Positions 22,290-45,171 of a stretch of 64,000 bases of DNA are shown in pieces. The first letter of the stretch is position 1, and every line of letters starts with the position of its first letter. A program made the position numbers and the translations under genes. The notes under the pieces were generated by a model that saw only the letters and a list, made by a program, of their open reading frames with translations, did no database searches and was not told the origin of the DNA. The stretch is from the NCBI GenBank assembly GCA_019638485.1, contig JAHBTP010000001.1:372001-436000 (forward strand). Direction: 5' to 3'. Source of the stretch: Ferruginibacter sp. GTDB taxonomy: Bacteria; Bacteroidota; Bacteroidia; Chitinophagales; Chitinophagaceae.

Positions 22290-22932
22290 ATTGAAAAAGT
22301 GGGTCGTTAGTTAAATAGTTTTTTCCTTTTTCTTTTTTAGGTAAATAAATTTTGCCCTTATGTATTTTTAAAATACCGGAATCAGCTAATTGCTTCACTG
22401 ATCTAATAACCGTTTCTACTCTAAAGCCTAACAAATTGGCAATTTGCTGTCTGGTTAGTAAAATTTTATGGCAATCCTTGCAACAAAATTCTTCATTAAT
22501 TTTTAAAAAATGAAGCAGTTTCAAAATGGCTTTTCTAGGATTGTTTTGAGCAACTTCTTTAAGTAAAAATATTTTAAATCGTAACCTTGAACTTATGGTG
22601 CTCAAAAGCATTTCATAATACTTGGGATGCGCAGATAATAGCCTTAGGAAATCTTTGGTATTTACTCTAATTACGGTGCTCTCTGTTTCTGCAATTAAGG
22701 TAACCGGCACAGGTTTGTTATCAAATATACCCGCCTCAGCACAGGATTGGCCGGGCAAAACAAAATATTGCAAAAGCTCTTGTTCTGAATGAATGGAATT
22801 AATGGCTTTAAGTTTGCCTTCTACTAATTGATGGTAGAAGAGTGTGGGCTGCCCTTCACGCACAATAACTTCATTAATGGTATGCCTTTTTTGTAATCCT
22901 CCGTATTGCTGCAGCAATTCAATCGGTATCAT
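22270..22932 (-). CDS. Crp/Fnr family regulator
   Basis: One-component regulator with a cyclic-nucleotide-binding-like sensor domain (about 1-120) and a C-terminal HTH (about 150-205). The recognition helix reads GFRVETVIRSVKQL and keeps the Glu and Arg of Fnr-type TGA readers. A short Cys motif CCKDCHK lies between sensor and HTH. It is unlike the four-Cys Fnr cluster at the N-terminus, so oxygen sensing by an Fe-S cluster is not assured. It is divergent from nosC-nosZ, and a TGATTAAAATCA palindrome sits between them. It probably regulates nos and possibly itself. Confidence 0.88.
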   Translation of the reverse strand: MIPIELLQQYGGLQKRHTINEVIVREGQPTLFYHQLVEGKLKAINSIHSEQELLQYFVLPGQSCAEAGIFDNKPVPVTLIAETESTVIRVNTKDFLRLLSAHPKYYEMLLSTISSRLRFKIFLLKEVAQNNPRKAILKLLHFLKINEEFCCKDCHKILLTRQQIANLLGFRVETVIRSVKQLADSGILKIHKGKIYLPKKEKGKNYLTNDPLFQYDIPTI

Positions 22933-30266: not shown

Positions 30267-30274
30267 GAAAGGTA
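30267..30274 (-). promoter_or_regulatory. -7-like box (TACCTTTC) of the fasciclin gene
   Basis: Read on the minus strand, TACCTTTC matches TAnnTTTG in seven of eight positions. It starts 35 bases after the outer edge of the palindrome at 30298-30309 and about 20 bases before the chosen ATG. The placement mirrors that of the ccoI promoter. Confidence 0.45.
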
Positions 30275-30297: not shown

Positions 30298-30331
30298 TGA
30301 CTTGTGTCATAAAAGTGTTTGATTGCTGTCA
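30298..30331. promoter_or_regulatory. Two Crp/Fnr-type palindromes, ccoI and fasciclin promoters
   Basis: Site A is TGACTTGTGTCA at 30298-30309, perfect over ATGAC-N4-GTCAT. Site B is TGATTGCTGTCA at 30320-30331. Their starts are 22 bp apart, about two helical turns. Site B starts 35 bases before the ccoI box, and site A starts, on the other strand, 35 bases before the fasciclin box. Both positions correspond to centres near -41.5, the class II position of Crp/Fnr activators. Confidence 0.7.
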
Positions 30332-30354: not shown

Positions 30355-30362
30355 TATGTTTG
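30355..30362 (+). promoter_or_regulatory. -7 box (TATGTTTG) of ccoI
   Basis: Exact match to TAnnTTTG, 22 bases before the TTG start of ccoI. No TTG -33 element is visible, which fits an activator-dependent promoter using the palindrome at 30320. Confidence 0.6.
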
Positions 30363-30383: not shown

Positions 30384-32792
30384 TTGGAAAGTAATTTTTG
30401 TTTTCATTGTGGCGATGTATGTCCGTCAGAATCTATAATAGAAGATGGACACCCATTCTGTTGCCAGGGATGCCGACAAGTCTATTTATTATTGAATGAA
30501 AATAATCTTTGTTCCTATTACGATTTTAGTAAAACACCCGGCATAAAAGCCAAAGGACGGTTCATTTCTGAAAACTTTGCCTTCCTTGATGATGAGCATA
30601 TTATAAACGACCTGGTTAGTTTTAAAAGCGAAGAAAGAATACATGTGATGTTTGATTTGCCCCAGGTTCATTGTTCATCATGCGTGTATTTGTTAGAAAA
30701 TTTGCATCGTATAAATTCCGGAATTCTTCAATCTAATTTGAATTTCCAACGAAAAGAAATCTTTATTGCTTTTTCGCCCAAGGATATTTCATTGCGGGGT
30801 GTGGTTGAATTACTAACTTTTATTGGGTATGAGCCAGCTATTAGTTTAAAATCGAAAACAAAAAAGAGGGTGAAGCCAGTGCGTAGAAAGGAAATTTTTA
30901 GAATAGCAGTGGCCGGATTTTGCTTCTCAAATATTATGATGCTAAGTTTTCCTGAATATCTTTCTTCAGGTAATATTTTGGAAGGAGGATTCAAGGAGGC
31001 TTTTTCATGGTTGATTTTTGCTTTGTCACTTCCGGTGTTAATTTTTGGTGCTGGCGGTATTTTCAAATCAGCTTTTAAGGGCCTACGGCATAAAGATATA
31101 AATATTGATGTGCCCATTGCGCTGGCTATTGTTATTACTTTTGGCCGTAGTTATTATGAAATTATAAGTGGAACAGGAGCCGGTTATTTAGATTCCGGAT
31201 CCGGCATTATTTTCTATATGCTTGTTGGGCGCTGGTTCCAAAGTAAAACAAATGAAGCGTTGTCTTTTGATCGGGATTATCGCTCCTACTTTCCATTAGG
31301 CGTTACCGTTAGCAGCCAGGGGAAGGAAGATAATATTCCTGTTACCCGGTTAAAACATGGCGATAAGGTGGTGTTAAGAATGGGGGAGATGTTGCCCGCA
31401 GATGCAATACTTAAATCTCCTGTGGCAGAATTTGACTACAGTTTTGTAACTGGTGAAAACAAGCCTGTTATATTGAAAAGCGGGGCATTAGTATATGCCG
31501 GATGCAGGCAATTAGGAGGTCGTATTGAATTGGAGGTAGTTAAAGAACCATCTCAAAGTTACATTACTGAATTATGGAACAATGATGTGTTTTCAGAAGG
31601 GAAAAAACAACGAACCTCATTTGTTCATCCATGGAGTCGCTATTTTACTGTAGTTCTGTTGTCTATTGCTACTGCAACAGCTATATACTGGTATAATATA
31701 GATGCATCAAAGTTATTTCCTGCAGTTACTGCTGTGCTTATTGTGGCTTGCCCATGTTCGTTATTACTATCCGCTACTTTCACATTTGGAAATATGCTCA
31801 GATACTTTGGCCGTGCCAAACTCTTTTTAAAAAATGCAGGTGTTATTGAACAAATGGCTGCTGTAAACACTATTGTTTTAGATAAGACAGGCACTGTTAC
31901 CGAAGTTGAACATAATAGGGTTCAATATAATGGAGTTGAACTATACCCCTTTGAAAAACGATATGTAAAGCAATTAGTAGGACAATCAGCACATGTGCTT
32001 AGCAGAAGTATTTTTGATAGTCTTGATGAAACTATAGATAAAAATGACAATCTTTTTGAATTCAAGGAATTACCCGGTCATGGAATTGAAGCGGTAATAG
32101 ATAATCAAAAAATTAGAATGGGTGCATATAAATTTGTTTTTGATGATGCTGCGCTATCTGATGAGAATGATAAGATTGGATCAAGGGTGTATGTGAAAAT
32201 GGGAGATTCTACAAAAGGGTTTTATGAATTTAAGAATATGTACCGTAAAGGATTTAAACGTATGGTATGGAGTTTAATTAGGAAGGGTTATGAAGTGCAT
32301 TTGCTGTCGGGTGATAATGATGCAGAAAAAAGGAGGCTCAATAAATATTTTGATGGTAAGTTAGAGATGGTTTTTGATGTAACTCCATTGGGAAAACTTG
32401 AGTATATAAAAAAATTACAAAAAAGAGGACGCAAGGTGCTGATGGTGGGAGACGGTTTAAACGATGCCGGAGCATTAAAACAAGCAGATGTAAGCATCGC
32501 AGTTAGTGATCAATCAGCACGTTTCACACCAGCTAGTGATGGCATTTTAGATGGCTCGGCAGTTAGAAAGCTATCCTCATTTTTGCATTATGCACGCGGA
32601 GCAAAAAAATTAATTGCTATAGGTTTTGTTTTATCCATCCTCTATAATGTAGTAGGATTAACCTTTGCCGTTACAGCTAATTTATCGCCATTAGTGGCTG
32701 CAATCCTTATGCCTGCCAGCAGTTTGAGTCTAATTGGCCTTGCTGCCGGCTTAACGTATTGGTATGCAAAGACGAAGTCAAAACTTAGGTGA
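30384..32792 (+). CDS. ccoI: CcoI/FixI-type heavy-metal P-type ATPase
   Basis: Copper-exporting P1B ATPase needed to assemble the CuB site of cbb3 oxidase. The N-terminus has a metal-binding Cys cluster (CFHCGDVC, then CCQGC) and a degenerate HMA-like segment with HCSSCV. Then follow eight membrane helices with the metal-binding VACPCSLL, the phosphorylation site DKTGTVTE, TGEN in the actuator (usually TGES) and GDGLNDAGAL. The start must be TTG at 30384: an in-frame TAA lies three codons upstream and there is no ATG before the conserved Cys cluster. The ccoI stop codon TGA is itself the first half of a regulatory palindrome. Confidence 0.93.
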   Translation: MESNFCFHCGDVCPSESIIEDGHPFCCQGCRQVYLLLNENNLCSYYDFSKTPGIKAKGRFISENFAFLDDEHIINDLVSFKSEERIHVMFDLPQVHCSSCVYLLENLHRINSGILQSNLNFQRKEIFIAFSPKDISLRGVVELLTFIGYEPAISLKSKTKKRVKPVRRKEIFRIAVAGFCFSNIMMLSFPEYLSSGNILEGGFKEAFSWLIFALSLPVLIFGAGGIFKSAFKGLRHKDINIDVPIALAIVITFGRSYYEIISGTGAGYLDSGSGIIFYMLVGRWFQSKTNEALSFDRDYRSYFPLGVTVSSQGKEDNIPVTRLKHGDKVVLRMGEMLPADAILKSPVAEFDYSFVTGENKPVILKSGALVYAGCRQLGGRIELEVVKEPSQSYITELWNNDVFSEGKKQRTSFVHPWSRYFTVVLLSIATATAIYWYNIDASKLFPAVTAVLIVACPCSLLLSATFTFGNMLRYFGRAKLFLKNAGVIEQMAAVNTIVLDKTGTVTEVEHNRVQYNGVELYPFEKRYVKQLVGQSAHVLSRSIFDSLDETIDKNDNLFEFKELPGHGIEAVIDNQKIRMGAYKFVFDDAALSDENDKIGSRVYVKMGDSTKGFYEFKNMYRKGFKRMVWSLIRKGYEVHLLSGDNDAEKRRLNKYFDGKLEMVFDVTPLGKLEYIKKLQKRGRKVLMVGDGLNDAGALKQADVSIAVSDQSARFTPASDGILDGSAVRKLSSFLHYARGAKKLIAIGFVLSILYNVVGLTFAVTANLSPLVAAILMPASSLSLIGLAAGLTYWYAKTKSKLR

Positions 32793-32823
32793 TTCTTGTC
32801 ATAAAGAATTTTGATGATAGTCA
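32790..32823. promoter_or_regulatory. Two Crp/Fnr-type palindromes before ccoS
   Basis: TGATTCTTGTCA at 32790-32801 and TGATGATAGTCA at 32812-32823, both TGAT-N4-GTCA. Their starts are 22 bp apart, the same spacing as the pair before ccoI. The second starts 35 bases before the -7 box at 32847. The first three bases of the first site are the ccoI stop codon. Confidence 0.7.
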
Positions 32824-32846: not shown

Positions 32847-32854
32847 TACTTTTG
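32847..32854 (+). promoter_or_regulatory. -7 box (TACTTTTG) of the ccoS-ccoNO operon
   Basis: Exact TAnnTTTG match placed 16 bases before the ccoS ATG, giving a leader of roughly 10 bases. It stands 35 bases after the start of the nearer palindrome, identical to the ccoI promoter. Confidence 0.6.
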
Positions 32855-32869
32855 GCGATATAATTGGAT

Positions 32870-33058
32870 ATGAGTGTAATATTTGTCCTAATTGCCGTCA
32901 GTCTTTTGCTGGCAGGAGGTTTCCTGTTGGCTTTTTTTTGGAACGTAAAGAGTGGTCAGTATGATGATGACTATACGCCATCTATTAGGATGCTTTTTGA
33001 TAATGAAATAAATGATAAAAACAACAATAACAACAATAACAAAACAAAAAATAATTAA
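32870..33058 (+). CDS. ccoS: CcoS, cbb3 oxidase assembly protein
   Basis: Small single-pass membrane protein required for heme and copper insertion into CcoN. It has one helix (MSVIFVLIAVSLLLAGGFLLAFFW) followed by KSGQYDD, the usual CcoS motif. The tail is asparagine-rich, coded by repeats of AAC/AAT/AAA, and probably disordered. ATG 32870 is chosen over the TTG two codons earlier. It opens the oxidase operon, 11 bases before ccoNO. Confidence 0.88.
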   Translation: MSVIFVLIAVSLLLAGGFLLAFFWNVKSGQYDDDYTPSIRMLFDNEINDKNNNNNNNKTKNN

Positions 33059-33069
33059 TCATAGAGAAT

Positions 33070-35187
33070 ATGCAACCGGATAAGTTTTATTATGATAACA
33101 GGATTGTAAAGAATTTTGCTTTTGCCACAATCTTTTGGGGAGTTATTGGCATGTTGGTTGGATTATGGGCATCCTTACAATTGATATTTCCCACTTTAAA
33201 TATCCAGCAGTTTGGATCGTTTGGAAGAATCAGGCCATTGCATACCAACGCAGTTATTTTTGCATTTGTAGGTAATGGAATTTTTATGGGCGTGTATTAT
33301 TCTTTGCAGCGCCTATGTAAAGCGCGAATGTATAGTGATGCATTGAGTAAAATTCATTTTTGGGGATGGCAATTAATTATTGTGGCAGCAGTGGTTACCT
33401 TACCGTTAGGCATTACCGCATCAAAAGAATATGCAGAATTAGAGTGGCCAATTGATGTGGCGATTACCTTTATATGGGTTGTTTTTGGTTGGAATATGTT
33501 TGCTACAATTATTAAGCGACGTGAGCGTCATCTGTATGTAGCCATTTGGTTTTATATCGGCACTTTTGTTACTGTTGCTGTTTTACATATTGTAAATTCT
33601 TTTGCCATTCCTGTCAATTTTTTAAAGAGCTATTCATGGTATGCGGGGGTGCAGGATGCATTAGTTCAGTGGTGGTATGGACATAATGCTGTGGCATTCT
33701 TCTTAACTACTCCCTATCTCGGTCTTATGTATTATTTTCTTCCTAAGGCAGCAAACAGGCCTGTTTATTCATATCGGTTAAGTATCATCCATTTCTGGTC
33801 ACTCATCTTTTTATATATCTGGGCAGGCCCTCATCATCTGTTATATACTGCATTGCCTAACTGGGCGCAATCATTGGGAGTTGTTTTTTCCATCATGTTA
33901 TTGTTTCCAAGTTGGGGTGGTATGATAAATGGATTACTTACTCTTCGTGGTGCGTGGGATCGTGTACGCGATGACGTTATATTAAAATTTATGGTGGTGG
34001 CTGTTACAGCCTATGGTATGGCTACCTTCGAAGGACCAATGCTTTCATTGAAATCAGTTAGTGCCATTGCACACTATACTGATTGGATTGTTGCGCACGT
34101 GCATGTAGGCGGATTGGGCTGGAATGGAATGTTAACATTTGGTATCCTGTACTGGTTAATCCCTCGGTTATTTAATACAACACTGTATTCTAAAAAAATG
34201 GCGGCTTCTCACTTTTGGATGGCAACCCTGGGTATTGTGTTTTATGCCGTTCCGTTGTATTGGGCGGGATTTACACAGAGTAGTATGTGGAAACAGTTTA
34301 CTGCAGGCGGGCAACTTAAATATAGTTTTCTTGAAACGGTTACTTATCTCAAACCGTTTTATATTATGCGTTCTTTAGGCGGAACATTATATTTAATTGG
34401 AGCTATCTTAATGATGTATAACCTGTATAAAACTGTCCGTGCAGGTAAATTGGTGGCTAATGAAGCGGCTGAAGGGATGCCTCTGCAATCCTTAACTGAA
34501 GCTAATTTCCGGGAGACATGGCATCGTAAGATTGAACGCAAACCGGTAAAGCTGCTAATTTTCAGCCTTATTGTAATCTTAATAGGAGGAATCGTAGAAT
34601 TTGTTCCTACATTTTTAGTAAAATCAAATGTGCCTACCATAAGTAGCGTAAAGCCTTATACACCCCTTGAATTACAGGGTAGAGATTTGTATGTGCGTGA
34701 AGGTTGCTACACCTGCCACTCACAAATGATCAGACCTTTTAGGAGTGAAACAGAGCGATATGGTGAATATTCAAAAGCAGGTGAATTTGTGTATGATCAT
34801 CCGTTTCAATGGGGCAGTAAACGTACCGGCCCCGATCTGGCACGGGAAGGCGCGGGTAACCTTAAAAAGTCTAACGGTTGGCATTTCCGCCACTTCCGAG
34901 ATCCGGGTTCAATGAGTGAAGGATCTATCATGCCTTCTTATGATTTTATGCTGCATAAGGACTTGGATACAAATACAACAGCATCTAAAATTAAAGCAAT
35001 GCAAAAATTAGGTGTGCCTTATCCGGATGGATTTGAAAGGGAAGCGAACAAATTATTAATGGAGCAAGCTACACATATTGCAGGCAATTTGCAGGGCGAC
35101 AGTATCAGAGTGTCTCCACGAAAGGAAGTTATTGCCTTGATTGCCTATATGCAACGCTTGGGAACTGATATTCAAAAAAATGATTAA
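33070..35187 (+). CDS. ccoN: CcoNO, fused catalytic and cytochrome c subunits of cbb3 oxidase
   Basis: High-affinity terminal oxidase subunits I and II in one chain (705 aa), common in Bacteroidota. The CcoN part (1-480) keeps the heme b ligand in RPLHTNAV, the CuB His residues in YGHNAVAFF and GPHHLLYT, and the HVH pair in IVAHVHVGGLGWNG. The CcoO part (about 505-705) has one membrane anchor and a monoheme c domain with CYTCH, SQMIRPF and GPDLAREG. The fusion point lies near residue 470-500. It is followed by ccoQ after 11 bases. Confidence 0.97.
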   Translation: MQPDKFYYDNRIVKNFAFATIFWGVIGMLVGLWASLQLIFPTLNIQQFGSFGRIRPLHTNAVIFAFVGNGIFMGVYYSLQRLCKARMYSDALSKIHFWGWQLIIVAAVVTLPLGITASKEYAELEWPIDVAITFIWVVFGWNMFATIIKRRERHLYVAIWFYIGTFVTVAVLHIVNSFAIPVNFLKSYSWYAGVQDALVQWWYGHNAVAFFLTTPYLGLMYYFLPKAANRPVYSYRLSIIHFWSLIFLYIWAGPHHLLYTALPNWAQSLGVVFSIMLLFPSWGGMINGLLTLRGAWDRVRDDVILKFMVVAVTAYGMATFEGPMLSLKSVSAIAHYTDWIVAHVHVGGLGWNGMLTFGILYWLIPRLFNTTLYSKKMAASHFWMATLGIVFYAVPLYWAGFTQSSMWKQFTAGGQLKYSFLETVTYLKPFYIMRSLGGTLYLIGAILMMYNLYKTVRAGKLVANEAAEGMPLQSLTEANFRETWHRKIERKPVKLLIFSLIVILIGGIVEFVPTFLVKSNVPTISSVKPYTPLELQGRDLYVREGCYTCHSQMIRPFRSETERYGEYSKAGEFVYDHPFQWGSKRTGPDLAREGAGNLKKSNGWHFRHFRDPGSMSEGSIMPSYDFMLHKDLDTNTTASKIKAMQKLGVPYPDGFEREANKLLMEQATHIAGNLQGDSIRVSPRKEVIALIAYMQRLGTDIQKND

Positions 35188-35399: not shown

Positions 35400-36542
35400 A
35401 TGAAACAGGTGAATAAAATTAAAAAGAGCTTTTTATTGGGATGTTCTATCCTTTCTCCAATTTTACTTGCTGCACAAACAGAAACGCAACCCGCTACTGA
35501 AAGCGAACCAATCAATTTGGCAGTGTTTATTTTAATCACTATTGCTGTATTGCTTGCCTTTGTCATCTGGGGATTGGGATATGTGTTGGATGAATTAGGT
35601 AGTCAAGTATTGAAGAAATCAAAACACTTAAAAACAGTATTGTTAATTGTATTGGTAAGTATAGGCTCTATGACCTATGCTCAGGAAGATTCCCGAAATA
35701 TAATAGCAACTCCATCATCCATTGCAGGTATTTCTCCTTTTGCATTTTGGATGATTATAATAGTTATCGGTATTGAAATAGTAGCTATTTTATTTCTACT
35801 ATATATGATTAATCAGTTTCGTAAAGAGTTGATTCCCGGTGAAGAGGATAGTGGTTGGTCTATGTATTGGAAGAAGCTGGATAAGAAACTTTTTACTAAA
35901 GCTGTGCCGGTAGAGCGGGAAGCAGATGTTTTGATGGAGCATGAGTATGATGGTATCAGAGAGTTAGATAATTCATTACCACCCTGGTGGAAGTATGGGT
36001 TTTATATAACCATTGGCGCTTCTGTTGTTTACCTGCTCTATTTTCATGTACTGGGAATTGGAAAAGATCCTATTCAAGAATATCAGTATGAGATGGATAA
36101 AGCCGCTGCACAATTACTAAAATTTCAAGAAAATGATCCGGGAAAGATTGATGAAAAGAATTTGAGTATGGTAGATGGTGCAGGAATTACAAATGGTGCT
36201 AAAATATATAATACGGCATGCTGGCCTTGTCATGGAAAAGAATTAGAGGGTGGAGCAGGGCCTAATTTAACCGATGATTATTGGCTACATAAAGGAGGGT
36301 TAACAGATATCTATTTGTCAATTAAACATGGTTATCCTGATAAAGGTATGCAGGCATGGGAGAAGAATTATTCACCTAAAGAAATCTTGCAGATGGCAAG
36401 TTATATTAAATCGAAGCAAGGAACTAACCCTCCGGGAGCCAAGGACCCGCAGGGCGATTTGTATGTAGAAGATACAGGAACAAATGAATTGAATCCACCT
36501 GAGGCCGTGAATGATTCTATAGCTGAGATTAAAAATAAGTAG
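35400..36542 (+). CDS. ccoP: CcoP, cytochrome c subunit of cbb3 oxidase
   Basis: Membrane-bound cytochrome c that brings electrons to CcoO. A signal-like N-terminal segment and further hydrophobic helices (about 40-60, 75-90, 110-130) precede the WWKYGFY helix that marks CcoP. The heme domain (about 255-350) shows CWPCHGKELEGGAGPNLTDDYW. Only one CxxCH is visible, whereas the proteobacterial CcoP has two. The extra N-terminal helices are usual in this phylum. ccoG follows after 5 bases. Confidence 0.92.
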   Translation: MKQVNKIKKSFLLGCSILSPILLAAQTETQPATESEPINLAVFILITIAVLLAFVIWGLGYVLDELGSQVLKKSKHLKTVLLIVLVSIGSMTYAQEDSRNIIATPSSIAGISPFAFWMIIIVIGIEIVAILFLLYMINQFRKELIPGEEDSGWSMYWKKLDKKLFTKAVPVEREADVLMEHEYDGIRELDNSLPPWWKYGFYITIGASVVYLLYFHVLGIGKDPIQEYQYEMDKAAAQLLKFQENDPGKIDEKNLSMVDGAGITNGAKIYNTACWPCHGKELEGGAGPNLTDDYWLHKGGLTDIYLSIKHGYPDKGMQAWEKNYSPKEILQMASYIKSKQGTNPPGAKDPQGDLYVEDTGTNELNPPEAVNDSIAEIKNK

Positions 36543-36547
36543 GGTAA

Positions 36548-37393
36548 ATGACAGAAGTGAATAAACATATTGACCAAGATAGTTTTCGTGATTCTGTAGC
36601 TACTATTACCAAGGAGGGAAATAGAAAATTTATCTATCCCAAAAAACCAAAGGGCAAGTATTACAATCTGCGTACATGGTTTAGTATTGGCTATTTGATT
36701 GTCTTCTTTGTTTTACCATTTATTAAAATGGATGGTGAGCCTTTGTTTTTATTTAATGTAATAGAAAGAAAATTTATTCTATTTGGTATGATATTTTGGC
36801 CACAGGACTTTTTCATTTTTGGCCTGGGTATGGTTACGTTTATTGTTTTTATTGTACTGTTTACTGCTGTATTTGGCAGGGTGTTTTGTGGATGGGCTTG
36901 TCCTCAAACTATTTTCCTTGAAATGATTTTTAGGAAAATTGAATATTGGATAGATGGGGATCAAACCAAACAAATGATTTTAGCCAAAATGCGGTGGAAT
37001 GCAGAGAAAATTAGAAAACGATTGATTAAGTTTATTGTGTTTTATACCATCTCATTTATTATAGCCAATTTTTTTCTTTCCTATATAGTAGGTATAGATA
37101 CCCTGTTGGATTATGTAGTACATCCGGCTAATAATATAGGCACATTAGCAGCTTTGTTACTCTTTACTACCATTTTCTTCTTTGTGTATTGGTGGTTTAG
37201 AGAACAAGTGTGTATTGTGGTCTGTCCTTATGGACGACTACAAGGTGTTTTGCTAGATAAGAATTCAATTGTTGTGGCTTATGATTACAAGCGTGGAGAA
37301 CCTAGAGGAAAGCCCGGTAAAAAGAGAGGAGCTGAAACAATTGGGGATGGTTGTTCCACATGTATAAAGAAATATGATGGCACAGGAAAATGA
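36548..37393 (+). CDS. ccoG: CcoG, N-terminal part of a split gene
   Basis: Membrane part of the cbb3 oxidase copper-handling protein CcoG (RdxA/FixG). It has four to five helices and the Cys motifs CGWACPQTIFLEM (about 115) and CIVVCPYGRLQG (about 223). It ends in a strange linker, GAETIGDGCSTCIKKYDGTGK, and a stop, just where normal CcoG continues into its ferredoxin domain. The next frame carries that domain. Read together the two would give a typical CcoG, so this is a frameshifted or split gene. The overlap is 20 bases. Confidence 0.85.
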   Translation: MTEVNKHIDQDSFRDSVATITKEGNRKFIYPKKPKGKYYNLRTWFSIGYLIVFFVLPFIKMDGEPLFLFNVIERKFILFGMIFWPQDFFIFGLGMVTFIVFIVLFTAVFGRVFCGWACPQTIFLEMIFRKIEYWIDGDQTKQMILAKMRWNAEKIRKRLIKFIVFYTISFIIANFFLSYIVGIDTLLDYVVHPANNIGTLAALLLFTTIFFFVYWWFREQVCIVVCPYGRLQGVLLDKNSIVVAYDYKRGEPRGKPGKKRGAETIGDGCSTCIKKYDGTGK

Positions 37394-38030
37394 ACAAATA
37401 GCAGTTGTTGATTTGGGTGATTGCATTGATTGCTTTGCTTGTGTACGCGTGTGTCCTACCGGTATTGATATTCGCAATGGTACTCAATTGGAATGTGTGA
37501 ATTGCACGGCTTGTATGGATGCTTGTGATGCCATAATGGATAGTATTGGTAAGCCCAGAGGATTAATCAGATTGGCATCTGAAAACTCAATTAGAGATGG
37601 AAAGAAACTTGTGATGACTAGACGGATAAAGGTCTATACATTGTTGCTACTATTGTTGATTGGTTTTTTAGGCTTCTTATTAGCCTCTAGAAGCGATGTA
37701 GATGCAAGACTAATGCGTACTGCCGGTATGACCTATAATTCATTACCGGATGGGCGAATTAGTAATTTGTATAATTTAAAACTGATAAATAAATCACGCA
37801 AGGATATTCCGGTGGATGTTAGGGTTGAAGAATCAAATGCAGAGTTACAAATGATTAGCCTGAATAAGACGATAAAGAAGGAAGATCATACTACACTTCA
37901 ATTTTTTATTATTCTAAACCGTAATCAAGTTAAGAGTTGGAAAACAGAGATTGAATTGGGATTGTATCAAAACGGAGAAAAATTTAAAACACTAACGGCA
38001 AAATTTATTGGCCCTGAAGTGTATGAATAA
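37374..38030 (+). CDS. ccoG: CcoG, C-terminal part (ferredoxin and Ig-like domain)
   Basis: Starts ATGATG at 37374 inside the end of the N-terminal part. The ferredoxin clusters are CIDCFACVRVCPTGIDI and CVNCTACMDACDAI. A membrane helix (about 85-105) and a periplasmic Ig-like domain follow up to residue 218, as in full-length CcoG. If the N-terminal part were made separately the domains would still have to join in the membrane. Frame 3 is closed upstream by TAA at 37365-37367, so the shift or restart must occur between 37368 and 37393. Confidence 0.85.
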   Translation: MMAQENEQIAVVDLGDCIDCFACVRVCPTGIDIRNGTQLECVNCTACMDACDAIMDSIGKPRGLIRLASENSIRDGKKLVMTRRIKVYTLLLLLLIGFLGFLLASRSDVDARLMRTAGMTYNSLPDGRISNLYNLKLINKSRKDIPVDVRVEESNAELQMISLNKTIKKEDHTTLQFFIILNRNQVKSWKTEIELGLYQNGEKFKTLTAKFIGPEVYE

Positions 38031-38475
38031 AAATCTTTTTATGAATTGGGGATATAAATTAATGACAGTTTTTGTTTTATTCGTTTTAGGTATCCTAGTG
38101 ATGGTTTATAAGGCATCACAATTTAGCAGTGAATTGGTTACAACAGGATATTATGAGAAGGAACTGGTGTATCAAAATCAAATTGATGCCATGAATCGCT
38201 CGGCTGCATTAAATGAGGCAGTAACGGTATCTTATAATGGCAAGTATTTGATAGTGAAGTTTCCGGATATGTTTAGAGGAGTAGAGATAGTGGCAGACGT
38301 AGAATTGTATTGTCCTTCAGATAAAAGACAAGATCGTCATTTTAGTCAAAAAACCCAGTTTGCCGGGCTTGAATTGGTTGTCACTGACCTACAACCTGCA
38401 AAATATTACGTAAACGTAAATTGGTATCAGAATGATGATCACTACTTTGATAAAATTGAATTAATATGGCCTTGA
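38023..38475 (+). CDS. ccoH: CcoH/FixH, cbb3 assembly protein
   Basis: Single-pass membrane protein that stabilises the assembling cbb3 complex. A helix (about 13-30, LMTVFVLFVLGILVMVY) is followed by GYYEKELVYQNQIDAMNR, the family hallmark, and then a beta-rich periplasmic domain. ATG 38023 overlaps the ccoG stop region by eight bases (ATGAATAA). The TTG at 38008 is less likely. Confidence 0.9.
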   Translation: MNKNLFMNWGYKLMTVFVLFVLGILVMVYKASQFSSELVTTGYYEKELVYQNQIDAMNRSAALNEAVTVSYNGKYLIVKFPDMFRGVEIVADVELYCPSDKRQDRHFSQKTQFAGLELVVTDLQPAKYYVNVNWYQNDDHYFDKIELIWP

Positions 38476-39185
38476 TGGCATGGTTAATAAGCGGGTTTAT
38501 GTTGGGGCTCATGGGTAGCCTGCATTGTGTGGGCATGTGCGGCCCACTGGCCTTGTCATTGCCGCTTTCTGCAAAATCGAAGACTTCGCGGCTTTGGGGT
38601 AGCTTTTTATATAATGGAGGAAGAGTAATTACGTATATGCTGCTGGGAACTGTGTTAGGTGTTATTGGGTATTCATTTGTATTGATTGGTTATCAAAAAT
38701 GGTTGTCTATAGGATTAGGGTTTTTATTGCTGGCTTCATTTGCTGCTATGAAATTCTTGTCGGGCAAATTTCGTTTAGGCATAACCGATAGTTTCTTTAA
38801 ATGGGTAAGACAAAGGATTGGGTCTCTTTTTAGTCATCAACAATGGTGGGCCCTGTTTGCTATTGGATTGTTAAATGGATTATTACCCTGTGGCTTGGTC
38901 TATTTGGCTATTGCGCTGTCCCTTGCCGGTAGTACGCCATTACATAGTGCCTTATTAATGGGGGCTTTTGGATTGGGTACCTTACCGTTAATGTGGATGG
39001 TGTCTTTTTTCGGAAGCTTTATCCTAGTAAAACAACGGTTGATGTTAAAGAAGGTACTTCCGGTATTAACCTTATTGATGGGGTGTCTTTTGATTTTGCG
39101 TGGGCTTGAACTGGGAATTCCATATATCAGCCCAAGTTTCACTGGACAATCACATCATGGACATAATATTATTTGTCATGAATAA
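38466..39185 (+). CDS. SafE/UreH-like membrane protein of the cbb3 locus
   Basis: Six-helix protein of the sulfite exporter TauE/SafE or UreH-like family (239 aa). The start MLGLMGSLHCVGMCGPLALS carries HCVGMCG, a putative metal-binding motif. GLLPCGLVYLAIALSLAG is the matching second half. It closes the cco operon with a ten-base overlap with ccoH. In many bacteria this gene sits beside ccoGHIS. A role in copper import for the oxidase is therefore plausible; the substrate is not proven. Confidence 0.82.
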   Translation: MALMAWLISGFMLGLMGSLHCVGMCGPLALSLPLSAKSKTSRLWGSFLYNGGRVITYMLLGTVLGVIGYSFVLIGYQKWLSIGLGFLLLASFAAMKFLSGKFRLGITDSFFKWVRQRIGSLFSHQQWWALFAIGLLNGLLPCGLVYLAIALSLAGSTPLHSALLMGAFGLGTLPLMWMVSFFGSFILVKQRLMLKKVLPVLTLLMGCLLILRGLELGIPYISPSFTGQSHHGHNIICHE

Positions 39186-39225: not shown

Positions 39226-39645
39226 ATGAGACAACTATCAAATGATAAAAAAAGAGAGCAGACATTCTGGGATCACTTTGCCTTAGAATGTATGTCATGG
39301 TTGCGTGAATTAGATTTCTTTTTAATGGAGGTTTCATTAATGAAAACCAGGCTATCTCATTTGGTAGATGCGGCTACCGAGCGTTCCATGATAAATAAGG
39401 CAGAAGAATTTGTTATAAGATTAATGGATTATGAAGAGCGTATCCGACAAATTTATAATGAAATAAAATCGCACGAGTCTAAGGGTGGGAATGGACCGGT
39501 GATAAAGCAATCAGATGCCAATAAGTACAAAATAATGGAAGATCATGCCCATTTACGTACGGCAATGGCTGATATGTCATCTATCTTCCTTGAGTTGAGA
39601 ATTCGATTTAACCAGTGGATGGAAGATGAAATGCGTGAAATTTAA
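39226..39645 (+). CDS. Hypothetical helical protein
   Basis: Unrecognised 139-aa protein, almost all alpha-helical and highly charged, with two long amphipathic stretches (FALECMSWLRELDFFLMEVSL, about 18-37, and the closing HAHLRTAMADMSSIFLELR). It has no signal peptide or membrane helix. It may be a coiled-coil adaptor. It is plus-strand, follows the cco operon by 40 bases, and its last four bases overlap the stop region of the convergent response-regulator gene. Confidence 0.6.
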   Translation: MRQLSNDKKREQTFWDHFALECMSWLRELDFFLMEVSLMKTRLSHLVDAATERSMINKAEEFVIRLMDYEERIRQIYNEIKSHESKGGNGPVIKQSDANKYKIMEDHAHLRTAMADMSSIFLELRIRFNQWMEDEMREI

Positions 39646-40706
39646 TTCAACATATTTTTTAATTTCTGTTCATTCAGTAGGGTGATTTTGCTACCTTCTA
39701 CTTTAATCAGGTTTTCACTTTTAAAATCACTTAGGGTTCTAATAAGAGACTCAGTTGCTGTGCCGGCTATATTAGCTAAATCCTCTCTTGATAAATGAAT
39801 GGAGAAAGGTGGCTTTTCTTCGGCTTTCGTATATTTGTCACGTAAAATAATTAGTGCATTAGCTACTCGTTTACGAAGAGAATTATAAGCTACATTAAGC
39901 AACTGAGTTTCTTTTTCTGCAATATTTTTTGTCATCAATTTAATAAAATGATGAGTTGCTTCTGTATTGGAGTTGATTAAATCTCTAAAATCATCTACAG
40001 GAATTTCTACAATCACTGAGTCGTCAAGAGTTTCGGCTGTTTCCCGATAGGTACTGTTTTCCAAAAGAGCAGTATAGCCGAAAAAATCACCACTTGTAAA
40101 CAATCCGATAGTTAATCCTTTGCCATCATCACTGGTGATAAAAGTTTTTACTTTCCCCTCTTTTACAAAGAATAGTTTTTGAGGATGGTTGCCGGTATGA
40201 TAAATATTTTGTTTTTTCTTGTACAAATTTTCTACCCGGTTGGCTAAGAAATTTTGTAGAGCATGCTCCCCTTTAAAATCTCTCAAAAAATGTTTAATAC
40301 CATTTTCATCAGAGGTGTATGCATTGCGTAATGATGCAACTTTCTTTAATCTACTTTCAATGGCACTTAGTAGTTCAATGTCTGTAAAAGGCTTGGTGAT
40401 ATAATCATCTGCACCCATCTCCATCCCCTTGCGTAAATCAGCACGTTCACTCTTTGCAGTAAGAAATATGAACGGGATACCTGCTAATTCATGATTTTTA
40501 TTAACAAGATGAAGCACACCATATCCATCCAATACCGGCATCATAACATCGCAAATAATTAAATCAGGCCTGTTTGCCAGTGCAGCTTCAACACCCAGCT
40601 TTCCATTTGCAGCAGTTGTTACTTTATAATCGGCCAAAATAAGAATCTCTGCCGTGTTTTCCCTGATTTCATCGTTGTCTTCAATAAGTAAAATATGTTG
40701 CTTCAT
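39642..40706 (-). CDS. Response regulator fused to a Crp/Fnr-type DNA-binding protein
   Basis: Three parts in one chain. A receiver domain (about 1-120) has the acidic pair ED at the start of the fold, the phosphoacceptor Asp in IICDVMMPVLDG and Lys in ITKPF. A cyclic-nucleotide-binding-like domain (about 150-260) comes next. The C-terminal Crp-type HTH has SREDLANIAGTATESLIRTL. The recognition helix keeps the Glu and Arg (ESLIR) of TGA-reading Fnr/FixK proteins. It behaves as FixJ and FixK merged. The ATG at 40706 lies two bases after the kinase stop, so the kinase and regulator are one operon. Likely targets are the palindromes before ccoI and ccoS. Confidence 0.9.
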   Translation of the reverse strand: MKQHILLIEDNDEIRENTAEILILADYKVTTAANGKLGVEAALANRPDLIICDVMMPVLDGYGVLHLVNKNHELAGIPFIFLTAKSERADLRKGMEMGADDYITKPFTDIELLSAIESRLKKVASLRNAYTSDENGIKHFLRDFKGEHALQNFLANRVENLYKKKQNIYHTGNHPQKLFFVKEGKVKTFITSDDGKGLTIGLFTSGDFFGYTALLENSTYRETAETLDDSVIVEIPVDDFRDLINSNTEATHHFIKLMTKNIAEKETQLLNVAYNSLRKRVANALIILRDKYTKAEEKPPFSIHLSREDLANIAGTATESLIRTLSDFKSENLIKVEGSKITLLNEQKLKNMLN

Positions 40707-40708
40707 AC

Positions 40709-41950
40709 TCAAATATAATTAACCGGAATTACAATGTTAAATATAGTGCCTTCGCCAAGATTACTGTTGAATGTGATTTTTCCATTCATTAATTCAAGGT
40801 ACTTTCCAACAATATGTAATCCTAAACCCGTACCTTGGATGTTTACTGCATTTCTTGCCCTGAAAAACCGTTTGAAAAGACGCTTTTGATCCTGGGCAGC
40901 GATTCCAATCCCATAGTCGCGAATAACCACGCTTAATTCTCTTTCTTGTACGGTTGTATTAAGTTCAATTTTTCCTCCCGGATGAGAAAACTTAATTGCG
41001 TTGGATAAGAGGTTAATAATAATGTTGCGGAATAAATTTGGGTCTAAATAAACCATTGTTTGCCCTAAATGTTTATATGTGATTTGCTGATTTTGAGTAC
41101 TCAGCATTTGCATTTCGGTGCATATACCCGAAACCATTTCCTGTACATCAAATGTTGTAGCCTGAGGTTCAATCCTGCCATCGTCAATACGCCCAATAGA
41201 TAAGAATTCGTTTAAAATACTGGTAAGGTTGTTTACCGAAGATTTAATTCGGGCAATATGTTTATCTCTTTGTGGTTGCTCACCTTCAGTAGTGTATTTT
41301 GCTAAAAGGGATGCAGATGATAATATAGTGCTGAGTGGTGTTCTGAACTCATGTGAAGCCATTGAAACAAATCGCGTTTTTAAGTCACTCAATTCCTTTT
41401 CTTTATCCAACTCACTGGATAACTCATCGCGTGACGTTTTTAATTGCTGCATTATTTCTTTTAATTGTTCAGTTCGCAACTCTACCTTCTTCTCTAGTTC
41501 CTCATTAAGCTCTTCCATCTTTTTGTTTATCCTTGCAAGTTGCTCCTTTTGTTGCAGCGCATTATTTTCTATTTCCTTTCTTTGGGTAATATCAATTACG
41601 TAAGCAATAATAAATTTTTCACCTTCAAATGTGTAATGACTTAAGCTTACTTCAACAGGAATTTCAGTTTTGTCCTTTTTTAATCCATGAAGCTCACGTC
41701 CCATTCCCATAGCTCTTGGCGACAATTCATTATTATATTTTTCTCTATACGAATCATGGTGTTTAGAAAACCGGTGAGGTATGAGCACTTCAACTTTCTT
41801 TCCTATGAGTTCTGAAGGGTTGGTGTATCCGAATTCTTTTATTAAGAATCTGTTAACCATCGTTATTATACCCTCTTTGTTGGCTACTAATATACCCATG
41901 GATGCATATTGAAAAAGAGCTTCAAATTTTTGGTCATTGGGCTGTGGCAT
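40709..41950 (-). CDS. PAS histidine kinase, FixL-like
   Basis: Soluble sensor kinase: an N-terminal PAS domain (about 8-125), a coiled coil (about 125-195), HisKA with the phospho-His in SHEFRTPLST (about 205), and an HATPase domain with NLLSNAIKFS, DYGIGI and GTGLGLHI. In the PAS domain SKHHDSYREKY is followed after the FixL spacing by MGMGR. In FixL the corresponding His binds heme and the Arg contacts the gas ligand. Many non-heme PAS domains share parts of this pattern, so heme binding is a prediction. It has no membrane segment. It is upstream of, and co-transcribed with, the receiver-Crp gene. Confidence 0.9.
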   Translation of the reverse strand: MPQPNDQKFEALFQYASMGILVANKEGIITMVNRFLIKEFGYTNPSELIGKKVEVLIPHRFSKHHDSYREKYNNELSPRAMGMGRELHGLKKDKTEIPVEVSLSHYTFEGEKFIIAYVIDITQRKEIENNALQQKEQLARINKKMEELNEELEKKVELRTEQLKEIMQQLKTSRDELSSELDKEKELSDLKTRFVSMASHEFRTPLSTILSSASLLAKYTTEGEQPQRDKHIARIKSSVNNLTSILNEFLSIGRIDDGRIEPQATTFDVQEMVSGICTEMQMLSTQNQQITYKHLGQTMVYLDPNLFRNIIINLLSNAIKFSHPGGKIELNTTVQERELSVVIRDYGIGIAAQDQKRLFKRFFRARNAVNIQGTGLGLHIVGKYLELMNGKITFNSNLGEGTIFNIVIPVNYI

Positions 41951-42086: not shown

Positions 42087-42742
42087 GCCCTTCAACTTTG
42101 TTGAAAGGCCTTGTGACCGCGTTAGGATTATTTCATGATCCGTTGATGGGAGGGCTTACAAGGCCTTTAGCGCTTTGCGCTGTCAGTCTTTTTGTTTGTT
42201 TGCTTTTGAGTGCACACACTCATCGCATCCAAACTAAAAAGCCCTTCAACTTTGTTGAAAGGCCTTGTGACCGCGTTAGGATTATTTCATGATCCGTTGA
42301 TGGGGGGCTTACAAGGCCTTTAGCGCTTTGCGCTGTCAGTCTTTTTGTTTGTTTGCTTTTGAGTGCACACACTCATCGCATCCAAACTAAAAAGCCCTTC
42401 AACTTTGTTGAAAGGCCTTGTGACCGCGTTAGGATTATTTCATGATCCGTTGATGGGGGGCTTACAAGGCCTTTAGCGCTTTGCGCTGTCAGTCTTTTTG
42501 TTTGTTTGCTTTTGAGTGCACACACTCATCGCATCCAAACTAAAAAGCCCTTCAACTTTGTTGAAAGGCCTTGTGACCGCGTTAGGATTATTTCATGATC
42601 CGTTGATGGGGGGCTTACAAGGCCTTTAGCGCTTTGCGCTGTCAGTCTTTTTGTTTGTTTGCTTTTGAGTGCACACACTCATCGCATCCAAACTAAAAAG
42701 CCCTTCAACTTTGTTGAAAGGCCTTGTGACCGCGTTAGGATT
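42087..42742 (-). repeat. Tandem 153-bp repeats carrying the tRNA-Arg 3' end
   Basis: Four near-identical units start at 42087, 42241, 42394 and 42547 (154, 153, 153, 153 bp). A fifth, partial copy from 42700 runs into the tRNA gene to 42742. Each unit, read on the minus strand, holds the last 16 bases of the tRNA, its terminator hairpin (GCCCTTCAAC/GTTGAAAGGC) and further stems AGCGC-TTT-GCGCT and TGAGTG-CACA-CACTCA. An 8-bp pair GGCCTTGT/ACAAGGCC closes a shortened tRNA-like piece with ACGGATCA. The ORF in this stretch is a translation of the repeat, not a gene. Confidence 0.9.
42695..42723 (-). terminator. Terminator after tRNA-Arg
   Basis: On the minus strand GGCCTTTCAAC-AAA-GTTGAAGGGC is followed by TTTTTAG. 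It lies 4-30 bases beyond the tRNA 3' end and is copied in each 153-bp unit. Confidence 0.8.
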
Positions 42743-42942: not shown

Positions 42943-45171
42943 ATGAGAAAATGCCTGTTGGTTTTTGTGCTTGGCCTTTTATTTTCTTTTTCAGCAATCG
43001 CACAATCAACCTTGATAGTTAATGAAATTTCACAAGGAACAAATAACACCAAGGAATATGTTGAATTTGTTGTAATAGGAACCCGAACTTGTACTGATAG
43101 TACTGCTGATTTACGAAATTGGATTTTTGATGATCATAATGGATGGTATGGAGGAAGTGGAACGGGCATAGCTGCCGGACATTATCGGTTTAAAAATATT
43201 TCTGAATGGTCGAAAATTCCTTACGGGTCAATTATCTTGATTTATAATAATGCAGATCGTAACCTTAAAATTCCTGTAGGAAGTGATGATCCAACAGACG
43301 TAAATCATGATTATGTGTATGTACTTCCCATTACCAGTGATTTACTTGAACAGAATATTAACGAGCCTATCTCTCCATCAACTTTTAATTATACCTATCC
43401 TGTTGCCGGTTATAATAATCCGGTTGATTGGACGTCTATTGGCTTAGCTAATGGTGGTGATGCAGTTATTATTGTTAATCCTACTAATTTATCTGTGGCA
43501 AATCATTCAGTTTTATTTGGATTTACTCCTGCCACAGGAGCCCAGGTGCCAAATGTTGCTAAAGGCGCTGTTGGTGCAGGCGCCTGCCTTTATTTGTCGG
43601 ATGGTAATTATAATACTGAGGCATCATGGTTAATTGGTGTTGCAGGCACTGCCGATGAAACGCCGGGTGCGGGCAACTCTCCCGATAATTTAGCATGGAT
43701 AAACGCTATGCGAACCCAAACTTCGTCTTTCAATGTTACTGCTTCTGTTGTTAATCCTTCTTGTCCCGGAACTATGGGCGCAATAACCGTTACTTCTCCT
43801 ACCGGTACAAACTATACTTATGCTTTAAATGGAGGAACTTTTCAAACGGCAAATGTTTTTTCAAATTTAACGCCGGGAACCTATCTCATTTCGGTAAAGG
43901 AAGATGGAGGTTGTGAATCTACCTTGCAGGTTTATGTAGCAAATGCGCAAGGCGTGCCTGATATTATTTTTACTGTATTACAACCATCTTGCGCACAGCC
44001 ATTCGGAGGAATTACAATAACTTCACCTCCCGTAAGTCTTGGATATACTTTTAGTATAAATGGTGTAGATTTCCAGGCAGACCCTGTATTTAATAATCTC
44101 GCACCGGGTACATATACAATAACAATTGCAAATACACTTGGATGTACAAGATCTACCAGTACAACAATTAATACACCCACCGATCAACCCGCGCTACCCG
44201 CAGTTACTTCTCCGGTTAATTATTGTCTGAATCAAACTGCAACTCCTCTTGCAGCTTCAGGAAATAATTTGTTGTGGTATAATAGTTTGTCGGGTGGTAC
44301 AGGGCAGTCAACACCACCCACGCCCTTAACAAGTTCTGCCGGAACTACTTCTTATTATGTGTCTCAAACTATAAATGGATGCGAGAGTAATCGTGCCGAA
44401 ATTATCGTTCAGGTTACTGATTTTGATTTAGATGAAATTGAAGGGATAGATACAATTTGTTTAAGCGGAAATACTTTCGCAATACTTTCTAATTCTTTTG
44501 TTGGTGGAACTTGGAGTAGCAGTAATCCGGCTGTGGCTACGATTAGTACCGGAGGGATGGTAACTGCTGTTGCAGCAGGTACTACAACCATAACTTATGC
44601 AGCAACCTCAGGAGGTTGCCCTGCATCAGTAAGTATGGATGTTACGGTAAATGATTTTTCCCTATCATTAGATGGGCCGTTAGCCCCTGTAAATGCAGGC
44701 ACAAGTGTTATCCTTAATGCAAGTGCTATAGAACCATTTATTGTTACCTCATGGTTACCGATAAATCTATTTACCGACCAATCCCTTACTTCTCAAACCA
44801 TAATCGCCAGTTCTTCCGAATTGATAAAGGTGATTGGTGTGAGTACTTATGGATGTATTGATACTGCCCAATTTGAATTAGTGGTTATCCCTCAGGATGA
44901 AGAACTTTATATCCCTAATGCATTTAGTCCAAATCATGACGGGATAAACGATGTATTTAGGCCTTATGGAAATTCCATTATTATGGTTGAAACAACTATT
45001 TTTAATCAATGGGGCGAGAAAATTTTCTCGGGTAAGGGGCTTCCGGGTGGATGGGATGGCCTACATAAAGGTAAACTTCAACCATCTGGCGTATATGTAT
45101 ATGTTTTAAAGATTACGCTTCAATCCGGAAGGGTAGAAACAAAAAAAGGAGCTGTTAATTTAATACACTAA
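42943..45171 (+). CDS. Large secreted protein with gliding-motility-type C-terminal domain
   Basis: Cell-surface or secreted protein exported by the type IX system. A signal peptide (about 1-20, ending AIAQ) is followed by a lamin-tail-like N-terminal domain (about 25-265, VNEISQGTNNTKEYVEFVV). Two SprB-like repeats (about 270-400, each with LTPGTYLISV/LAPGTYTITI) come next, then Ig-like and Big_2-like domains (about 415-560, VAAGTTTITYAA). The C-terminal domain (about 655-742) is type B: IPNAFSPNHDGINDVFRP, FNQWGEKIF, and G-V-Y-V-Y-V-L-K. The T9SS machinery itself is outside the window. The stop is directly adjacent to the convergent ligase gene. Confidence 0.9.
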   Translation: MRKCLLVFVLGLLFSFSAIAQSTLIVNEISQGTNNTKEYVEFVVIGTRTCTDSTADLRNWIFDDHNGWYGGSGTGIAAGHYRFKNISEWSKIPYGSIILIYNNADRNLKIPVGSDDPTDVNHDYVYVLPITSDLLEQNINEPISPSTFNYTYPVAGYNNPVDWTSIGLANGGDAVIIVNPTNLSVANHSVLFGFTPATGAQVPNVAKGAVGAGACLYLSDGNYNTEASWLIGVAGTADETPGAGNSPDNLAWINAMRTQTSSFNVTASVVNPSCPGTMGAITVTSPTGTNYTYALNGGTFQTANVFSNLTPGTYLISVKEDGGCESTLQVYVANAQGVPDIIFTVLQPSCAQPFGGITITSPPVSLGYTFSINGVDFQADPVFNNLAPGTYTITIANTLGCTRSTSTTINTPTDQPALPAVTSPVNYCLNQTATPLAASGNNLLWYNSLSGGTGQSTPPTPLTSSAGTTSYYVSQTINGCESNRAEIIVQVTDFDLDEIEGIDTICLSGNTFAILSNSFVGGTWSSSNPAVATISTGGMVTAVAAGTTTITYAATSGGCPASVSMDVTVNDFSLSLDGPLAPVNAGTSVILNASAIEPFIVTSWLPINLFTDQSLTSQTIIASSSELIKVIGVSTYGCIDTAQFELVVIPQDEELYIPNAFSPNHDGINDVFRPYGNSIIMVETTIFNQWGEKIFSGKGLPGGWDGLHKGKLQPSGVYVYVLKITLQSGRVETKKGAVNLIH

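Follow-up and report, generated by a model that had tools for sequence, protein, structure and literature searches.

The stretch of DNA analysed here (the window; 64 kb of a Ferruginibacter genome) contains a minus-strand pair of genes encoding a PAS sensor histidine kinase and a response regulator, which lies tail to tail with a plus-strand cbb3 oxidase locus. The initial annotation had located this pair at the end of the cbb3 locus, and the arrangement bears this out, with genes for a copper-type ATPase, ccoS, ccoNO, ccoP, and ccoG converging on the pair. The features are as follows, in window coordinates.

30267..30274, minus strand: possible divergent -7 box TACCTTTC with one mismatch, for a fasciclin-type gene running in the opposite direction from the same operator
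30298..30309, no strand assigned: operator site 1 of the copper-ATPase promoter, TGACTTGTGTCA
30320..30331, no strand assigned: operator site 2 of the copper-ATPase promoter, TGATTGCTGTCA, 22 bp from site 1
30355..30362, plus strand: Bacteroidota -7 box TATGTTTG of the copper-ATPase promoter, exactly 23 bp past site 2 (box consensus from PMC9723704)
30384..32792, plus strand: heavy-metal P-type ATPase, copper-type and CcoI-like, a predicted target
32790..32801, no strand assigned: operator site 1 of the ccoS-ccoNO promoter, TGATTCTTGTCA
32812..32823, no strand assigned: operator site 2 of the ccoS-ccoNO promoter, TGATGATAGTCA
32847..32854, plus strand: -7 box TACTTTTG of the ccoS-ccoNO promoter, exactly 23 bp past site 2
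32870..35187, plus strand: ccoS-like small ORF (ATG at 32870) and fused ccoNO (33070-35187), predicted targets
35400..39185, plus strand: remainder of the cbb3 locus, with ccoP (35400), a ccoG-like pair (36548, 37374), a small membrane ORF (38008), and a transporter-like ORF (38466)
39642..40706, minus strand: response regulator of 354 aa (ATG at 40706, stop at 39642) with a receiver (Pfam Response_reg), cNMP_binding, and HTH_Crp_2
40709..41950, minus strand: PAS sensor histidine kinase of 413 aa (ATG at 41950, stop at 40709; Pfam PAS, HisKA, and HATPase_c)

The stop codon of the kinase gene and the ATG of the regulator gene are separated by a gap of 2 bp. No strongly hydrophobic segment was found in the kinase, which is predicted to be soluble, and its H-box and ATP-binding motifs are invariant or nearly so in 26 orthologues. 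The regulator combines Response_reg, cNMP_binding, and HTH_Crp_2 in a single ORF, as expected from the earlier description of a receiver fused straight to a Crp/Fnr-type DNA-binding domain. Among 13 orthologues of the regulator, the acidic pocket, the phospho-acceptor Asp, and the Lys of the receiver are invariant or nearly so, and the same holds for the recognition helix TATES(L/I)IR, whose retention had likewise been proposed. The regulator shares with FixK and FNR proteins a cNMP fold and an HTH_Crp domain with an E..IR recognition helix, but it carries an N-terminal receiver, which those stand-alone proteins lack, and its output of cNMP fold plus HTH_Crp_2 differs from the LuxR/NarL-type HTH that follows the receiver in FixJ. 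It is therefore not a FixJ, because the output is different, and not a FixK, because a receiver is present; by domain content, it is best classed as a Crp/Fnr-family reader with a fused receiver, and its partner as a kinase with a FixL-type PAS.

Both cco promoters share the architecture TGAYN4RTCA–N10–TGAYN4RTCA–N23–TAnnTTTG. The prediction that the promoters of the locus carry matching sites was borne out, since the sequence TGAYN4GTCA occurs exactly four times in the 64-kb window, as two pairs located before the copper ATPase and before ccoS-ccoNO, each spaced 22 bp from start to start. When up to two mismatches are allowed, shuffled sequences give an expectation of 0.11 site pairs against the four rows found, which represent two places read on both strands, and across the 2.76-Mb genome, exact site pairs occur only at the two cco promoters. 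Over the window, TTGANNNNNNTCAA at one mismatch shows no excess over chance and single TGAN6TCA sites are barely above chance; the spaced pair is the only informative form of the site. The divergent box at the copper-ATPase operator corresponds to a composite match on the minus strand (G000:C1:402267-402331). In Bacteroidota, sigma-A promoters have TAnnTTTG as their -7 box (PMC9723704). With the centre of this box placed at about -7, the centres of sites 2 and 1 would fall near -40 and -62, respectively. These are the class II and class I activator positions of Crp/Fnr proteins.

The geometry extends to related genomes. Upstream of ccoN, the site pair (up to two mismatches) was found in 24 of 30 genomes, and 21 of those 24 had the box at exactly +23. 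In a sample of 1.22 Mb, which was picked by the fusion protein with the motif ignored, 22 of the 34 site pairs less than 60 bp apart were spaced at exactly 22 bp and six more at 20-21 bp; the box stood at +23 in 14 of 15 cases, and a reversed control pattern gave 1 pair. The whole composite promoter (up to two mismatches) gave 414 matches in 99 genomes vs 1 for its control pattern. An origin of the sites by chance was rejected by the shuffles, by the control pattern for the composite, and by the motif-independent 1.22 Mb. The same geometry bears on the sign of regulation. The regulator might act as a repressor at these sites, since site 2 is near the -33 region and a protein positioned there could obstruct polymerase; repression is the least probable of the readings considered, as the fixed -40/-62 placement and the invariant 23-bp gap to the box correspond to class II/I activator positions of Crp/Fnr proteins, and Flavobacterium psychrophilum, from another family, strongly induces its cbb3 oxidase on oxygen limitation (PMC9723704).

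The fusion was detected at E below 1e-60 in 62 of 99 close genomes. A phylum-wide sample of 148 genomes had it in 23, all within the Bacteroidia and with identity down to about 41%. The named relatives possessing it are Chitinophagaceae, including Ferruginibacter, Terrimonas, Lacibacter, Niabella, Chitinophaga, Flavisolibacter, and others. A kinase gene lies immediately 5' of the fusion gene in nearly all loci with enough flanking sequence (the partner kinases of family f25, from more distant Bacteroidia, were identified by eye), and in the window's own family, the partners are either about 420 aa long with one PAS or about 545 aa long with a longer sensor, which in at least some cases includes a second PAS. 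In many relatives, ccoN is no more than about 15 kb away from the pair. In four genomes (G012, G024, G026, and G057), the pair is found on a different contig from ccoN, whose promoter has no operator pair there. Other genomes, for example G005, G009, G045, and G056, have the fusion without cbb3, and the system must therefore serve other targets too.

The composite promoter co-occurs with the fusion, being found in 55 of the 62 fusion-bearing genomes vs 13 of the 37 others (Fisher p 5e-8, a guide only, as the genomes are related and kinship is uncorrected), with a mean of 6.2 matches per genome vs 0.9, respectively; in seven genomes, the fusion is present and the composite absent. The operator sites are thus not exclusive to the fusion, because the 13 fusion-less genomes have composites and some of them encode an FNR-like protein with a similar helix. 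Stand-alone FNR-like proteins with a Cys-rich N-terminus and a TATET or TATES helix were found in G060, G077, G013, and G074, in the first three of these near cco, and such a protein may be the reader of these promoters in genomes without the fusion. These proteins, together with the composites in fusion-less genomes, could also be taken to mean that a different Crp/Fnr protein is the main reader of the operators, with the receiver-Crp pair a mere neighbour. We consider this improbable for the window genome, in which the remaining Crp proteins found have different helices, none of them TATES; the concentration of composites in fusion genomes argues in the same direction, as does a composite that adjoins the fusion gene itself in several families. 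The resolution of a tree of the Crp parts was insufficient to tell whether the fusion originated from stand-alone FNR-like proteins or in which direction any swap went. If an FNR-like protein and the kinase-fusion pair did replace one another, this would be comparable to Alphaproteobacteria, for which an exchange of FnrN for FixLJ-FixK has been described (PMC4999443).

In 40 regions, the products of the first genes 3' of the composite include copper ATPase, ccoN, ccoG, many Usp proteins, and HemN, together with RIC/ScdA, hemerythrin, BON and DUF892 proteins, PaaB, a beta-eliminating lyase (tryptophanase-like), and a second stand-alone Crp protein. In G004, the kinase gene and RIC/ScdA are read away from each other behind a composite, and each side has a perfect box; here, a single operator pair (G004:C44:77203-77298; L295/L296) forms two divergent perfect composites, one for the kinase and one for RIC/ScdA, a protein of Fe-S repair. 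This arrangement suggests autoregulation of the kinase and a tie to iron-sulphur damage. In family f23, also more distant Bacteroidia, the composite is flanked by the fusion gene on one side and, on the other, by a D-lactate dehydrogenase-like gene, which is followed by hemN. In three relatives (L305, L307, and L310), a composite stands before the gene of the second, stand-alone Crp protein, which suggests a downstream cascade; a similar protein of the window genome (L224) is encoded at about window position 22330. In family f25 (L355, L356, L357, and L359), one to four or more universal stress protein genes stand 3' of the fusion gene, and the 22-bp composite of the other families was not found at these loci, where the operator may be different. 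A perfect composite also occurs before paaB of phenylacetate degradation (L275; G088:C43:184515); as this pathway uses oxygen, its presence in a low-oxygen regulon is unexpected.

FNR and ANR classically control HemN, cco, and Usp genes. The genes behind the composite look like a low-oxygen regulon, and low oxygen would therefore be the natural signal of the system, whatever the cofactor of the PAS domain.

The nature of that cofactor was approached through the PAS domain itself. In the kinase, a distance of 20 residues separates His65 from Arg85, and the two align with His200 and Arg220 of Bradyrhizobium japonicum FixL (BjFixL), in accordance with the spacing first noted for this domain, and in the window genome, the His/Arg pair occurs in 1 of 12 PAS_9 matches, which is this kinase. 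Against all solved chains, the window PAS matches FixL best (E 9e-13), followed by DosP. A profile of 17 orthologues also places FixL first (E 1.7e-17), with FixL or DosP accounting for 13 of the 14 top PDB sequences and flavin and citrate-type PAS domains well below FixL, which is near-equivalent to the comparison of heme and non-heme PAS families that had been suggested as decisive. The likeness to FixL drawn from the two residues is stronger for the His than for the Arg, which most close orthologues lack. The proximal His is present in 84 of 85 near relatives with sequence at this position and in 16 of 16 distant loci; the distal Arg, found in the window kinase, is kept in 9 of 85 near relatives and in 13 of 16 distant loci, the near relatives having Met (41), Lys (16), Leu (14), or a few other residues including Ile in its place. 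At the positions of the FixL propionate residues 206 and 214, the window kinase has Lys and Arg. In families f23 and f25, partner kinases with a canonical FixL PAS occur; the partner kinase of L365, for example, has the equivalents of His200, Arg206, His214, and Arg220 and is 51% identical to BjFixL (E 7e-30).

Poor conservation of the Arg among close orthologues means that FixL-like O2 chemistry cannot be assumed for the window kinase, and its loss weakens any claim on such chemistry made from sequence. Heme would still be possible without the Arg, because His is the only residue that touches heme in all structures of the FixL/DosP cluster (PMC10468136). Heme and oxygen sensing by the kinase are predictions. 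An AlphaFold model of the kinase (pTM 0.39) had low confidence over the His region, and a fold search returned generic kinases only, so both were set aside for the heme question. The same circuit and targets could be served by a PAS domain that is not an O2-binding heme sensor and that has drifted from a FixL-type ancestor towards another ligand, redox, or NO. The replacement of Arg in most close orthologues and the differing propionate-side residues favour such a drift, an RPMG-type sequence with His is also present in 10jx, a solved kinase PAS, and RIC/ScdA and hemerythrin as targets would fit NO or oxidative damage as well. We regard this reading as unlikely, though deserving of serious attention, since the His that is the sole invariant heme contact of the cluster (PMC10468136) is nearly invariant here and the targets match low-oxygen regulons.

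The reading that we consider probable is a low-oxygen two-component switch, in which a PAS kinase and a receiver-Crp protein directly activate genes of high-affinity respiration. The idea that the roles of FixJ and FixK are united in one protein at a cbb3 locus was strengthened by the gene pairing, the promoter geometry, its co-occurrence with the fusion, and the FixL-type PAS of distant partners, alongside the two protein architectures and their conserved catalytic residues. In this circuit, the soluble PAS kinase would sense low oxygen, most likely via heme on His65, would autophosphorylate, and would pass the phosphate to the Asp of the receiver-Crp protein. Two Crp-type dimers of the phosphorylated regulator are predicted to occupy the TGAYN4RTCA sites, which are spaced 22 bp and have their centres at about -62 and -40 relative to a sigma-A promoter bearing the TAnnTTTG box. 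From there, the regulator would directly activate the copper ATPase and ccoS-ccoNO operons, with no separate fixK-like gene between sensor and target.

Such a circuit suggests a mode of action like that of the FixL-FixJ-FixK cascade of rhizobia and Caulobacterales with its last two steps in one protein. The two systems are alike in a PAS kinase whose nearest solved relative is FixL, in a Crp/Fnr-type reader, and in cco and respiration targets. They differ in that FixJ has its own DNA-binding domain and switches on a separate fixK gene (PMC4999443), whereas the window regulator joins its receiver directly to the Crp/Fnr portion and is predicted to bind sites in a 22-bp tandem arrangement. Similarly, the hFixL-FxkR-FixKf system of Rhizobium etli and R. 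leguminosarum is a variant of the FixL type with a Crp/Fnr protein at its end and with FxkR sites also predicted at the cco operon; however, FxkR is a separate response regulator for GTTACA-N4-GTTACA, and FixKf is a separate protein (PMC4999443). FNR/ANR and the stand-alone FNR-like proteins at cco (G060, G077, G013, and G087) go with TGA..TCA half-sites like those in the predicted operators of the fusion, and those of G060, G077, and G013 share a TATET helix, but they have N-terminal Cys motifs and no receiver, so that the receiver of the fusion takes the place of a Cys-rich sensor. The heme PAS of Escherichia coli DosP (EcDosP) belongs to the PAS cluster of FixL and aligns similarly over the His, with a weaker match than FixL. 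The output of EcDosP is a phosphodiesterase. In searches of an open-access library, no account was found of how Bacteroidia switch their high-affinity oxidases, and none of the fusion.

If the two-component reading is true, a three-protein cascade has been reduced to two proteins, and an FNR-like reader takes its input from phosphorylation in place of an iron-sulphur cluster. The circuit is concrete and testable, with named operators, and the natural series from Arg to Met, Lys, or Leu in a FixL-type pocket offers a ready set for probing the role of that residue. A broader proposal, which we put forward tentatively and hold to be somewhat doubtful, is a class-wide oxygen switch of the Bacteroidia with FixJ and FixK in one protein, whose sites would once have belonged to an ancestral FNR protein of the Fe-S kind; its two Crp dimers would bind cooperatively 22 bp apart in a phosphorylation-dependent manner, and in the window lineage, the change from Arg to Met, Lys, or Leu would have retuned the heme pocket in ligand or affinity.

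Two further features flank the pair. Between the kinase gene and an ORF at 42943, a block of about 170 bp with GCCCTTCAACTTTGTTGAAAGGCCTTGTGACCGCG in head-to-tail repeats was noted by eye (window 42090-42500 and beyond). On the other side, a plus-strand ORF of 139 aa (39226-39645), which had no match in Pfam or NCBIfam, shares 4 bases with the 3' end of the regulator gene. Small proteins of a size like that of the 139-aa ORF are also encoded near cco in G018 and G022 (L302 and L293), where they have a composite promoter.
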